A stretch of DNA of 64,000 bases. Origin: Cephaloticoccus primus (GTDB lineage: Bacteria > Verrucomicrobiota > Verrucomicrobiia > Opitutales > Opitutaceae). The DNA is taken from NCBI RefSeq assembly GCF_001580015.1, contig NZ_LSZQ01000052.1, positions 1 to 64,000 on the forward strand, read 5' to 3'. Below are positions 4,128 through 50,536 of the stretch, in pieces. Both the position numbers and the translations under genes were made by a program. Position 1 is the first letter of the stretch. Every line of letters starts with the position of its first letter. Under the pieces are notes generated by a model. It saw only the letters and a list, made by a program, of their open reading frames with translations. It did no database searches and was not told where the DNA came from.

Positions 4128-4410
4128 CGCATTGCGACAGGAAGCGAGGCTCCCAGGGCGAATGAAGCGGGAACCCATTGGGGCGGATTTGGGTGGGTCG
4201 CTGGTTAGGCCACGTTCGGCATAGCGTTTACTCGTTAATCAAAAAATCGCCCAAACGGGTTAATCTCGCGCTTTTCAGCCCGACCTCTGGTCGGGCTTTT
4301 CTTACTGTGCGGTTTGTGTGTCGGGCGGGGAGCCCGACACACAAACCGCACAGTAAATGGGAGCAGGCACTGCCATAAGACCGGTCTGCGACCGCGCCCC
4401 ACGCGTAGTG
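4128..4410. repeat. Mosaic palindromic element, copy A
   Basis: Parts in order: half of the short GC hairpin (TTGCGACAGG, about 4132-4141); the core stretch at 4161-4200 beginning AATGAAGCGGGAACCCATTG; a perfect 53-bp hairpin at 4303-4355 with 24-bp arms and a 5-nt loop; a degenerate mini-hairpin near 4363-4377; and an inverted end box CGCCCCACGCGTAGTG at 4395-4410. The same parts recur near 22.8, 37.3/38.4, 40.3 and 50.1 kb. The outer ten bases of the 53-bp hairpin (TACTGTGCGG) are shared with the copy at 50146-50198 while its inner arm differs. Confidence 0.75.
4277..4300 (+). terminator. Rho-independent-type terminator hairpin
   Basis: Nine-bp stem AGCCCGACC / GGTCGGGCT with a 3-nt loop, followed by TTTTCTT. 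It could end transcription from nth, although it lies about 190 bp past the stop codon and inside the repeat region. Confidence 0.6.
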
Positions 4411-4523
4411 GCGGTCGAAACCCTGAATGGAAATTTGTGTGGATTTCCCCAACCAGCTGTGACAACAAGCGCGCCTCGTTTTTCTGCCGCCCGAGGTGGC
4501 GGGAGGGCGACTCTTCATTCGCC

Positions 4524-22684: not shown

Positions 22685-23092
22685 GATGCGCGTCATAGCG
22701 CAGGAAAAGCGGCGTACTTTCAAGCGCCGTGCCGCTGGCCACAGCGGAAAACGTTTTTAGGCACACAACGCGCGCTCACTTAAAAGAACACTACCACTAC
22801 GCGTGAGGCGGTGGTCAGTGACCACTTCCATTTAATTTGGGAATCGGCCCCGCCGCTTCGCGCCGAAGCCGATTCCCAAATTAAGCTCCCCCTGTCGCGT
22901 TGCGACACAGTATTCGACCGTTCTATTTGGCGCGCCGCTCGCCCTCCCGCCTGGCGGCTCGTCAGTACCCAGCTCAAGCACGAATGGAGCGGAAAAACTG
23001 CTCGGCCGAAACTTCGGTTCACCGCCAAACGATCCCCCAAATATTTCTTGCGCAGCCGCGTACAGCTCCTCCTTACTCTGCGGCTCGTTTTT
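22685..23092. other. Intergenic region between recN and tRNA-Val holding mosaic element copy B
   Basis: No coding gene is supported. The left 110 bases are the recN upstream region and should contain its promoter. From 22795 the stretch is occupied by copy B of the mosaic palindromic element. A GC-rich imperfect dyad (GCAGCCGCG ... TGCGGCTCG followed by TTTTT) lies at about 23051-23092, immediately before the tRNA. Confidence 0.55.
22795..22965 (+). repeat. Mosaic palindromic element, copy B (left half)
   Basis: Parts in order: end box CACTACGCGTGAGGCGG at 22795-22811; mini-hairpin GTGGT-CAGTG-ACCAC at 22811-22825; spacer TTCCATTT; a 49-bp hairpin at 22834-22882 starting AATTTGGGAATCGG with a 5-nt CTTCG loop; the short GC hairpin region CCCTGTCGCGTTGCGACA at about 22888-22905; and the GCCGCTCG ... 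CGGCTCGTC module at about 22935-22964. The inverted right half seen in the 40.3-kb copy is missing. Confidence 0.75.
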
Positions 23093-33352: not shown

Positions 33353-33492
33353 GGCGAGCAGGGGACAGAGGCTGGGGGGGAATCCGCCGAACGCATTACT
33401 CCCCCCATGCAAGCCAAAACACAAGCCCTAAGCAAAATCCGCCCCCGAACAGCTCGAGGGCTCGCGTCAAGCCAACAGCAAGGCAACTAAAG

Positions 33493-33529
33493 CACTGCGC
33501 GTGGGCGGGGTCGCCCCACGCGTAGTGCC
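33493..33529. repeat. Minimal mosaic element: two end boxes head to head
   Basis: Imperfect palindrome of GCACTGCGCGTGGGCG and CGCCCCACGCGTAGTGC with a very short loop. Each arm is the end box CACTRCGCGTGGGGCG found at the outer ends of the longer mosaic elements at 4.4, 22.8, 40.3 and 50.1/50.4 kb. It looks like an element that has lost everything between its ends, or the seed form of the family. Confidence 0.7.
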
Positions 33530-37202: not shown

Positions 37203-37255
37203 AGGGAGGGGAAACGCGAGCCACCACCAGGCGGCTCGCATCGCAGAACCCTCCC

Positions 37256-37344
37256 CCTGCGCGGGGAGCGGGGGACGGTGTCCCCTGCCGTTCAATTTGC
37301 GATTTTGGGCGTGCGCTGCGCGCCCGCCCAAAATCGCAAATTTA
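37256..37344 (+). repeat. Mosaic palindromic element, copy C, left part (cut by IS630)
   Basis: Parts in order: a divergent end box CTGCGCGGGGAGCGG (37258-37272); mini-hairpin GGGGA-CGGTG-TCCCC at 37271-37285; spacer TGCCGTTC; a 49-bp hairpin at 37294-37342 with 22-bp arms (one mismatch) starting AATTTGCGATTTTGGGCG and a 5-nt loop; then the TA where the insertion sequence enters. The rest of the element continues at 38439. Confidence 0.75.
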
Positions 37345-38438
37345 CTCATAAGTCAGAAATATATGAGACATTTGGGTGGTTGAAGAATGATCTGACGAGG
37401 TTGGGGTTGGCTTTGATTTGGGTCAGTTGTGTATGGACGCGCTCGGCCAGTTTTTGTCCGGTGCGCAATGGGCTGCGAGCCAAGCCAGTACGTTTGGCAT
37501 AGCTCCAGACCAGCTCATCGGGGCCCAGGTCGGGCGCGTAGCCTGGCAGAAAATGCAGGGTCAGTTTGCCCTGGAGTTCATCGACATAGCTGCGGGCGGC
37601 GGCGGTCTTGTGCGCGGGCAGGTTATCGAGCACCAGGTGCACGGGGCGCTTTGCGCCTTCCATCATCTTGCGCAGCAGTTGGACAAAACGCTCCGCGTTC
37701 AAACTGCCCTGATAGGTGCTGAACCAAAACCCGCCTTTGCTGTTAACTGCCGAGGCCGCACTGACGGTCTGGCGCTGTCCGGGAACCCGCACTACCGGGG
37801 TTTTCCCCTTGGCCGCCCAGGTCTTGCCATGAACCGAATCGGCCCGAAATCCCGATTCATCCCAGAAGTAAATATCGGCCTTTTGCTGCCTAGCTCCGCG
37901 GGCAATCGCAGGGTAGATCTGTTGCTGCCAGCGAGCCACGGCGACCTGATCGCGTTGATAGGCTCGCTGTAGGGGCTTTTGAGCGCTCAACCCAAGTCGG
38001 GCCAACAGCGTCCCGATACTGGCCAGACTCAAGCGCACTTTGAATTCTCGCTCAACCAGTGCCTGCACCACCGCGCGTGTCCACAAGGCAAAATCAAACT
38101 CATACTGCCGGGGATTGTGACCATTGAGCCAAGTGAACACCTGGCGCTCCTGCCTCGCTGTCAGCTTGCGGGGCCGCCCCGTCCCCTTGCTCGAACGCAA
38201 AGCCCGAACCCCTCGGCCACGCCCTCGGGCCTTCGCTAAAACCCGGTACGCCCAACTGCGGTGAAAACCAAACGAGGCGGCAACAGCACTCGCGGACTCC
38301 CCCTCACGCATCCGCGACAAGCCAACCAACCGCATCTCCTCCAACGCTGAGTGTGAAACACTCCGTCCATCTCTTTTCATAATCACCACCATATAGCACA
38401 TAACTCAAAACACGTCTCCCATATTCCTGACTTCTGTG
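37345..38438 (-). mobile_element. IS630-family insertion sequence
   Basis: The element is about 1.1 kb, contains one transposase gene and is flanked by TA at 37343-37344 and 38439-38440, the target duplication typical of IS630. The inverted ends match over about 25 bp: the left end begins CTCATAAGTCAGAAATATAT and the right end, read inward, begins CACAGAAGTCAGGAATATGG. Removing the element and one TA restores a continuous mosaic repeat, AAATTTAAGG..., matching the uninterrupted copy at 40413-40421. The IS is therefore younger than that repeat. Confidence 0.9.
37346..38380 (-). CDS. IS630-family transposase
   Basis: DDE transposase of the IS630/Tc1-mariner group. The N-terminal 130 residues hold two helix-turn-helix parts (AVAASFGFHRSWAYRVL and the RPRKLTARQERQVFTWL linker region), typical for end binding. 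The catalytic residues are seen in IYFWDESGF, LVLDNLPAHK and DLGPDELVW. The reading frame is complete, with no frameshift or stop, so it may be active. I start it at ATG 38380 (MKRDGRS); in-frame starts at 38392 and 38401 are possible. The stop codon lies inside the left inverted repeat. Confidence 0.93.
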   Translation of the reverse strand: MKRDGRSVSHSALEEMRLVGLSRMREGESASAVAASFGFHRSWAYRVLAKARGRGRGVRALRSSKGTGRPRKLTARQERQVFTWLNGHNPRQYEFDFALWTRAVVQALVEREFKVRLSLASIGTLLARLGLSAQKPLQRAYQRDQVAVARWQQQIYPAIARGARQQKADIYFWDESGFRADSVHGKTWAAKGKTPVVRVPGQRQTVSAASAVNSKGGFWFSTYQGSLNAERFVQLLRKMMEGAKRPVHLVLDNLPAHKTAAARSYVDELQGKLTLHFLPGYAPDLGPDELVWSYAKRTGLARSPLRTGQKLAERVHTQLTQIKANPNLVRSFFNHPNVSYISDL

Positions 38439-38818
38439 TAAAGGTATCCCTCCTGTCGCGTTGCGAGGGGCGTAGCCCCGTTCTATTTTGCGAGCCGCTC
38501 GTTGGCGGCTCGTCAGGCATCTAGCTCAGGCCCGGATGAAAGCGAAAACCCGTTGGGGCGGATTTTTGGGTTCACGAGTTGATCTTCTACCCGAGCTTAG
38601 ATCAGTCAGCACCTTACCCGTGAATTGCTTCACCTCGGCCCAATGGGTTTCTGGCTTCATTCGCCGTCTTGGCCCCTCCTGTCGCGACGCGACAGGGTGC
38701 GAAATTTGGGAATCGTGCTTCGTCGCGTAGCGACGGGGCCGATTCCCAAATTCAATGGATGTGGCGACCCGCCACCGCTGCCCGCGCAGGGCCGCCTCCT
38801 CGCCCCTCAGGCGCTTGC
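38402..38818. other. Intergenic region between IS630 and the MFS gene
   Basis: No gene is supported. The first 37 bases are the right end of the IS; almost all the rest belongs to mosaic element copy C. Confidence 0.6.
38439..38812 (+). repeat. Mosaic palindromic element, copy C, right part
   Basis: Parts in order: CCTGTCGCGTTGCGAGGGGC with an added GGGGC/GCCCC hairpin (38453-38479); the GAGCCG/CGGCTC module (38492-38511); the core from about 38540 to 38660 beginning CGTTGGGGCGGATTTTTGGG; the short hairpin CCTGTCGCGACGCGACAGG (38675-38693); a 50-bp hairpin at 38703-38752 starting AATTTGGGAATCG; spacer CAATGGAT; mini-hairpin GTGGC-GACCC-GCCAC at 38761-38775; and the closing block CCACCGCTGCCCGCGCAGGG. 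The core is about 85-90 percent identical to that of copy E at 40485-40595. Confidence 0.8.
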
Positions 38819-40249: not shown

Positions 40250-40772
40250 GGCAGCCGTGAGCGAAGGCGATCAACCGACGCGCTTCCAGCGTTTTTTGGA
40301 ATGCGCTGTGGAGCACAGCGACGGCAGTCCACTGCGCGTGGGGCGGTGGCGGGTCGCCACTTCCATTCAATTTGCGATTTTGCGCGTGCGCTGCGCGCCC
40401 GAACAAAATCGCAAATTTAAGGAGCCTCCCCCTGTCGCGTTGCGACAGGAAGTGGGGCATCAAATGCGAATGGAGCGTGAACCCATTGGGGTGGATTTTT
40501 GGGTTCACGAGTTGATCTTCTACCCGAGCTTAGATCGGGCAGCACCTTACCCATGAATTGTTTCACCTCGGCCAAATGGGTTTCCGCTCCATCCGCGATT
40601 CAGGCTCCTTCCCAGTCGCAACGCGACTGGGGGATAGTCCGTTAAATTTGCGATTTTGGGCGGGCGCGCAGCGCACGCGCAAAATCGCAAATTAAATGGC
40701 AGTGAGCACTGCCCACCGCCGCCCGCGTAGGGCAGTCTCAGACCGCTTCATTATGCGCGCGGCCTACAGCGC
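40250..40772. other. Intergenic region between MFS and rsmB genes holding mosaic element copy E
   Basis: No gene is supported in these 523 bases. 40250-40329 is the MFS upstream region with a small CGCTGT/ACAGCG hairpin at about 40306-40322. The rest is copy E of the mosaic element. About 35 bases before the rsmB stop hold nothing recognised. Confidence 0.6.
40330..40736. repeat. Mosaic palindromic element, copy E (most complete)
   Basis: A nearly symmetrical element of about 400 bp. Left half: end box CACTGCGCGTGGGGCGG (40330-40346), mini-hairpin GTGGC-GGGTC-GCCAC (40346-40360), spacer TTCCATTC, 49-bp hairpin (40369-40417), short hairpin CCTGTCGCGTTGCGACAGG (40433-40451). Core: 40470-40600, whose two ends are also inverted relative to each other (GAACCCATTGGGGTGGA versus CCAAATGGGTTTC). 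Right half, inverted: short hairpin CCAGTCGCAACGCGACTGG (40614-40632), 49-bp hairpin (40645-40693), mini-hairpin GGCAGT/ACTGCC (40698-40713) and a closing CCACCGCCGCCCGCGTAGGG. Confidence 0.82.
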
Positions 40773-50035: not shown

Positions 50036-50107
50036 GGGGAGTTGGGGCCCCGCGAAGCTAATACAGTGCCCTTCTAAATCAAGGCGCAGTGTGCCGGACT
50101 CATTCGC

Positions 50108-50432
50108 CACTACGCGTGGGGCGGCAGGCGGTGCCTGCACCCATTTACTGTGCGGCTTGCGGGTTGTGCGTTCCGCACAACCCGCAAGCGGCACAGTAGA
50201 AAGGGCCCGTCCATTAATCGGTGATTCACCGGCAAATCGCTTCATCTCGCCCAAATGGGTATACGCTTCATTCGCGTTCTGGGCTCCTCTCCCTGTCGCA
50301 ACGCGACAGGGGGGAGCGAAATTTGCGATTTTGTTCGGGCGCGCAGCGCACGCGCAAAATCGCAAATTCAATGGGAGTGGCGACACGCCACCGCCGCCCG
50401 CGCAGGGCCGCCTTCCCGCCCCACGCGCAGTG
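50108..50432. repeat. Mosaic palindromic element, copy F, with inverted end boxes
   Basis: The element is bounded by CACTACGCGTGGGGCGG (50108-50124) and the inverted CCGCCCCACGCGCAGTG (50416-50432). Inside, in order: mini-hairpin GCAGG-CGGTG-CCTGC (50124-50138); spacer ACCCATT; 53-bp hairpin (50146-50198, 24 of 25 arm pairs); a shortened core (50210-50275); short hairpin CCTGTCGCAACGCGACAGG (50292-50310); 49-bp hairpin (50320-50368); spacer CAATGGGA; mini-hairpin GTGGC-GACAC-GCCAC (50377-50391); and the block CCACCGCCGCCCGCGCAGGG. I see no clear target-site duplication. Confidence 0.82.
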
Positions 50433-50502
50433 CGGTCGTTGACCGTTTTATGGGCCGCAGCGTCGTTGCCGCTGCGCGCAAGGGCTTCGACTCTTTCTCT
50501 TT

Positions 50503-50536
50503 GCGAGCCGCTCGCCCTCCCGCCTGGCGGCTCGTC
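50503..50536. repeat. GAGCCG/CGGCTC hairpin module outside element F
   Basis: GCGAGCCGCTCG and CGGCTCGTC form a 6-bp hairpin around CCCTCCCGCCTGG. The same module occurs at about 22935-22964 with nearly the same loop and at 38490-38514 with a short loop, so it travels with the mosaic elements. Confidence 0.65.

Follow-up and report, generated by a model that had tools for sequence, protein, structure and literature searches.

MITEs, ERIC, BOX and the neisserial mosaic elements are repeats of non-autonomous size with inverted ends, assembled as modular mosaics in which nested copies occur. Covariation between paired bases serves as the standard proof that an RNA structure is functional. Template switching has been described to produce arm homogenisation and spacer inversion (PMC8604942; PMC8794818), and loop inversion combined with compensatory change has been proposed as the strongest support for that process (PMC8794818). 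The repeat reported here is a non-autonomous, intergenic, REP/MITE-like composite whose hairpin arms mostly pair while their sequences turn over. It was found in the window, the whole 64,000-nucleotide stretch analysed, of a Cephaloticoccus (Opitutaceae) genome of 2.36 Mb (98.8% complete, 72 contigs). Species of this genus live as symbionts in the gut of Cephalotes turtle ants (PMC5840417). The best match of the IleS protein encoded in the window is from Cephaloticoccus capnophilus CV41 (81%), followed by other Opitutaceae; the window genome therefore probably belongs to a Cephaloticoccus different from CV41. Stretches totalling 1.22 Mb of the window genome, about half of it, were sampled, together with smaller amounts of C. 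capnophilus CV41 DNA.

A preliminary description had singled out six 15-nt mini hairpins, all of which lie in the window where it placed them; the distance of about 8 nt that it gave from mini hairpin to adjoining long hairpin is 8–9 nt in the window copies. Its reading of a 5-bp stem with a 5-nt loop needs revision: the next base pair forms in all six, and the structure is really a 6-bp stem with a 3-nt loop. Each of the six occupies the subterminal hairpin position at one end of a composite element, and the mini hairpin is one of several hairpins within such an end; the long hairpins adjoining the window copies have 23–27 bp. Two ends had been overlooked, a seventh copy on the minus strand at 40702–40716 (GTGGGC-AGT-GCTCAC, with one G-U pair) and an end at 4302–4411 whose mini hairpin is broken up by another module.

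The composite element consists of two inverted halves with the same order of modules and spans approximately 290–400 bp, with inverted end pairs taken as its bounds. From the outside in, a half-element contains the hairpin hp0, GGCGG, the mini hairpin, a 2–3 nt spacer, CCATT and the long hairpin. Hp0 is CCACTRCGCGTGG, or GCCCTRCGCGGGC with paired changes. In the typical composite, one half carries a C-type long hairpin (ACTGTGCGG...), and the other an A- or B-type long hairpin (AATTTGCGATTTT... or AATTTGGGAATCG...) adjoined by hp3 (CTGTCGC-GTT-GCGACAG). The inverted hp0-GGCGG ends form terminal inverted repeats: the 1.22 Mb of the window genome contains 171 half-elements, with 58 inverted pairs representing complete elements. 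Ends that are solitary, nested or doubled are frequently seen. The forward and reverse pattern matches (171/170) are probably inflated by the palindrome and were not used as a copy number. The features of the window are as follows.

4302..4411, minus strand: C-type half-element, with the mini-hairpin arm on the hp0 side split by a second hairpin module (CGGTCGCAGACCG)
22794..22910, plus strand: solitary half-element with hp0 CCACTACGCGTGA, mini hairpin, CCATT spacer, B-type long hairpin (22832–22884) and degenerate hp3 (TGTCGCGTTGCGACA)
22811..22825, plus strand: mini hairpin GTGGTC-AGT-GACCAC of this solitary B-type half-element
33492..33528, no strand assigned: minimal derivative, a pair of inverted hp0 ends in near-direct contact
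37254..37343, plus strand: A-type half-element with mini hairpin 37271–37285 (GGGGAC-GGT-GTCCCC), directly followed by an IS630-like insertion
38452..38792, minus strand: distal part (right end) of the 37254–38792 composite, with hp3 remnant, double-hairpin module, hp3 (38679–38695), B-type long hairpin, mini hairpin (38761–38775) and hp0
40328..40733, no strand assigned: complete A+A composite element of two inverted A halves
plus-strand A half of 40328..40733: mini hairpin 40346–40360, hp3 40432–40448
minus-strand, inverted A half of 40328..40733: hp3 40613–40629, long hairpin 40639–40699, the mini hairpin with one G-U pair given above, hp0 CCCTACGCGGG
50107..50433, no strand assigned: complete C+A composite element, a C half and an inverted A half
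plus-strand C half of 50107..50433: mini hairpin 50124–50138 (GCAGGC-GGT-GCCTGC), long hairpin 50144–50200
minus-strand, inverted A half of 50107..50433: hp3 50293–50309, long hairpin 50320–50368, mini hairpin 50377–50391, doubled hp0

The minimal derivative at 33492–33528 may have arisen from the element by internal deletion. An IS630-family transposase gene (37346–38401, minus strand) lies within 37343–38451, directly after the A-type half-element, and the insertion probably split one composite into 37254–37343 and 38452–38792. The solitary half-element at 22794–22910 is located between recN and a tRNA gene; the corresponding C. capnophilus gap is shorter and lacks the element, the two gaps being too diverged to define an empty site to the base.

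Two smaller units accompany the ends. A double-hairpin module, seen at 38473–38515, 50500–50536, 22935–22964 and many further loci, comprises a stem of mostly 8 bp with the loop CAACGA (as read on one strand), the linker AATAAA and a hairpin of 5 bp with a 3-nt loop; it is able to interrupt a mini hairpin or to flank hp0. The 11-mer GCCCTCCCGCC is present at 22941–22951, at 50514–50524 and in long hairpins of two other stretches (L015 and L091). Several different hairpins have it in the loop or the right arm, and it is also seen between hp0 ends that are doubled. It appears to have been inserted like a tiny module of its own.

The preliminary description had stated that the mini-hairpin arms always pair, and that copies with usually mismatched arms throughout the genome would speak against its reading. 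With the mini hairpin taken at a fixed offset from hp0 and pairing not demanded, 266 of the 284 half-elements of the two species pair at 6/6 positions, nine at 5/6 and nine at 3/6 or fewer; the refuting case is thus not seen. Ten fully paired stems occur (GTGGCG, GCAGGC, GCAGCG, GCGGTC, GGGGAC, GTGGTC, GCGGGC, GTGGCA, GGGGCG and GTGGGC). The 17 distinct stems form 95 of their 102 pairs, whereas re-dealing the 3' arms gives 62 ± 4.8 (0/10000). In the 35 distinct rows, 98.3% of cells are paired, compared to 74.2 ± 1.6% in shuffled controls and 31–54% on sliding by 1–3 columns, and the covariation score is 0.609 against a control of 0.170; none of the slid versions comes near. The mini allele and the type of the long hairpin are strongly linked (p ~1e-20), and copies of the same subfamily are therefore not independent compensatory events.

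The way in which the arms change was analysed by counting positions altered identically in both arms. For the 13 outermost base pairs of the long hairpin, 40 double-arm and 16 single-arm changed positions were found in the window genome (0.01 doubles expected), and 43 and 10 in C. capnophilus (0.007 expected). The mini hairpins show five double-arm and eight single-arm changes in the window genome (0.005 expected), and none and one in C. capnophilus. In three of the four data sets the double-arm changes thus exceed by ~1000–6000-fold the prediction for independent mutation, which uses the one-arm rate and assumes that this rate is uniform and that changes have no shared ancestry. In the adjacent end segment of 38–39 nt, double-changed copies differ from others by a mean of 0.9, compared to 0.8 for unchanged copies, in the window genome, and by 0.36 compared to 0.14 in C. 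capnophilus. Since the double-changed copies are about as close to the others as the unchanged ones, the double changes are mostly recent. Some of these private alleles may survive from older subfamilies, or may have sister copies in the other half of the genome. Loops carry a corresponding signal: among the A/B-type hairpins of the window genome, inverted loops are more common in perfect than in imperfect hairpins (Fisher p = 0.002), and the C-type hairpins lean in the same direction (p = 0.11), the loop classes having been set after inspection of the data in both cases. Homogenisation of the arms in one event is what we infer here, from frequencies rather than from timed events.

The consensus elements of the two species align from end to end, with hp0, GGCGG, CCATT, hp3, the central CTCGCCCAAA-GGGTT block and the outer linkers kept, and many positions of the long and mini stems differing on both sides. 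At least 145 exact half-sites were found in C. capnophilus, with different stems and the same hp0, linkers and hp3. The double-hairpin module occurs with about nine fully paired stem sequences, and its pairing is kept between copies and between species. Varying stems beside a constant CAACGA loop, AATAAA and linkers argue for retention of the loops, the linkers and the folded state, the constancy of CAACGA and AATAAA being built in to the extent that the module search was anchored on them. All mini-stem alleles found three or more times are fully paired, and imperfect mini stems never exceed two copies. The long hairpins are more tolerant: a recurrent imperfect A-type founder (L035 and similar copies) has three shared mismatches, the arms of a recurrent imperfect C-type founder (L087 and similar copies) differ in length by one base, and because both were amplified, perfect long stems are not required for spread.

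The covariation had been attributed either to selection on structure or to a replacement in which the two arms are rewritten together. The data back both, each at a different stage: rewriting by private two-arm changes that are at least about as numerous as one-arm changes and beyond independent mutation, together with homogenised arms and inverted loops, and constraint by the full pairing of the amplified mini stems and by loops and linkers common to both species despite turned-over stems. As judged from the sequences, it is fairly probable that arm-to-arm template switching yields the coupled changes, and that structural constraint acts as copies spread. A single hairpin would first mutate in one arm, and template switching during replication (quasipalindrome correction) would then re-copy one arm onto the other, so that both arms are altered in one event and the loop is sometimes inverted. 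Copies with intact folded ends (hp0, loops, linkers and a paired stem of any sequence) would be copied onward by a putative mobilising activity; stems would thus drift freely, with loops and linkers retained.

Strong covariation would also be seen if the element were transcribed and acted as a structured RNA (3' UTR, terminator or sRNA-like), its stems kept by stepwise compensatory selection. Placement agrees with such a role, as the half-elements of the window genome lie mostly in tandem (82) and convergent (63) gaps and rarely in divergent ones (5), with 21 unplaced, according to a crude gene caller that assigned 73% of the DNA as coding; few elements in divergent gaps are in any case expected, because any insertion harmful at promoters would avoid them. 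The RNA fold of the element is far more stable than shuffled sequences (z = −12.7), but high stability is expected of any palindrome set. The pattern of changes argues against RNA-level selection. Rare one-arm changes are without G-U bias on either strand, with four GT and four AC in the mini hairpins and 11 GT, 21 AC and 28 others in the long hairpins. Transversions make up 23 of 39 rare double-arm changes, compared to 22 of 54 single-arm changes; many double changes therefore arose without a G-U intermediate, and double changes are too frequent for independent hits among such similar copies. The orientation from C to A/B is balanced relative to tandem genes (31 half-elements the same, 38 opposite), and an Rfam search of the window returned two tRNAs and no other match. 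A structured RNA is consequently an unlikely explanation. An early excess of C-A mismatches in the A/B type proved to represent founder positions common to many copies; the rare changes show no clear bias.

Both arms would also arrive together if whole hairpin cassettes were exchanged between copies by recombination or gene conversion. Free assortment of hp0 and mini alleles (p = 0.54), the occurrence of a few unusual pairings between mini stem and type of long hairpin, and the many mosaic ends that contain nested or doubled modules are consistent with some exchange, but the tight linkage between mini alleles and long type is not. Moreover, the two-arm change AGTTTGCGATTTT (AGTTTGCG) is present in both arms of just one hairpin throughout the window genome, and in a single arm of three others; no sister copy in this assembly was therefore the source of its double-arm state. 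In C. capnophilus, the two-arm change AATTTGGGGATTG is carried by two hairpins, and no hairpin has it in one arm only. Cassette exchange as the source of the coupled changes is thus distinctly unlikely.

Within the genomes searched, the repeat is restricted to the two turtle-ant Cephaloticoccus species. Element DNA matched both and none of the other seven genomes of the genus searched, and the half-site pattern was absent from five other Opitutaceae-related genomes. The exact long-hairpin pattern matched only the window genome among 200 genomes of the family, but is the wrong probe for distribution because the stems turn over, and an hp0 pattern with a gap of 17–22 missed C. capnophilus (gap 16), and so carries no evidence on absence elsewhere. 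No match to the element pattern was found in the viral contigs searched.

Species-specific palindromes in tandem and convergent intergenic gaps, with subfamilies that carry alternative complementary stem bases, would suit a REP/BIME element that is spread by a RAYT (Y1 HUH transposase), and GTAG REPs have been described as plentiful in Opitutus terrae, which is also one of the Opitutaceae (PMC3733652). Against this reading, no Y1 transposase (PF01797) is found in the window genome, and the sole Y1 protein of C. capnophilus is an IS605-type tnpA beside tnpB, with no element ends in the surrounding 7 kb; this pair is single (stretch L279, 1798–3609). A multi-hairpin composite of ~300 bp that ends in the hp0 hairpin also departs from a REP unit of 20–40 bp, and no terminal GTAG or CGTC tag was recognised on the element. 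RAYT mobilisation is accordingly very improbable. Chance, low complexity or an assembly artefact has nothing more than the high G+C content in its favor and is a negligible explanation, as shuffled and slid controls fail to reproduce the pairing and the architecture is common to two separate genome assemblies.

As to the activity that would copy elements onward under template switching and constraint, almost no duplications of 2–9 bp were seen at the tested boundary offsets (a raw count, without a shuffled baseline), and no autonomous parent transposon was recognised between inward-facing ends up to 6 kb apart in about half of the window genome. The transposase found between element ends in the window belongs to the IS630-like insertion. 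Reverse transcriptases were not found in either genome, and tyrosine recombinases gave three matches in the window genome and two in C. capnophilus, which is no surplus. We offer as a doubtful suggestion that the mobiliser may recognise the folded shape and loop and linker sequence alone, leaving the stems free to turn over almost completely between sister species, and that it may be a non-Y1 (non-RAYT) activity, either a new hairpin-reading recombinase or polymerase-driven copying.

The element therefore represents a new lineage-restricted REP/MITE-like family that is neither a REP (no RAYT and no tag) nor a classical MITE (no target-site duplication seen). Like REP/BIME sequences (PMC3733652; REPINs, PMC3116915), it consists of intergenic palindromes that reach high copy numbers in particular species, sit in tandem and convergent gaps, form inverted dimers and fall into subfamilies that differ by complementary exchanges of stem bases; REP sequences also have a precedent in the Opitutaceae (O. 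terrae). It differs in being a composite of ~300 bp with at least six hairpins, in its conserved loops, linkers and terminal hp0 in place of a tetranucleotide tag, and in lacking a RAYT. Non-autonomous size, inverted ends, modular mosaicism and nested copies are shared with MITEs, ERIC, BOX and the neisserial mosaics; in contrast to these, no target-site duplication was found, no parent transposase was recognised, and each of its modules forms a hairpin of its own, the stems of which have turned over. The repetitive hairpin-forming and double-hairpin elements of mitochondria (PMC2800124) are likewise intergenic, sometimes doubled, multiplied within one genome and confined to related taxa, but in those of sponges the stems are conserved and the loops vary (PMC2800124), the reverse of the Cephaloticoccus element, which adds a case of unusually fast stem turnover with conserved loops.

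In many young copies both arms change jointly without a sign of RNA-level selection, for which template switching is the simplest reading; this calls for caution in RNA discovery based on covariation. Through this repeat, a debated mutation mechanism becomes measurable in nature. Quasipalindrome template-switch mutation (PMC8794818; PMC8604942; PMC7202029) shares with the element arm homogenisation, spacer inversion and multi-base compensatory change per event. It has been described as a mutation process, whereas here many copies of one repeat show it side by side in one genome.
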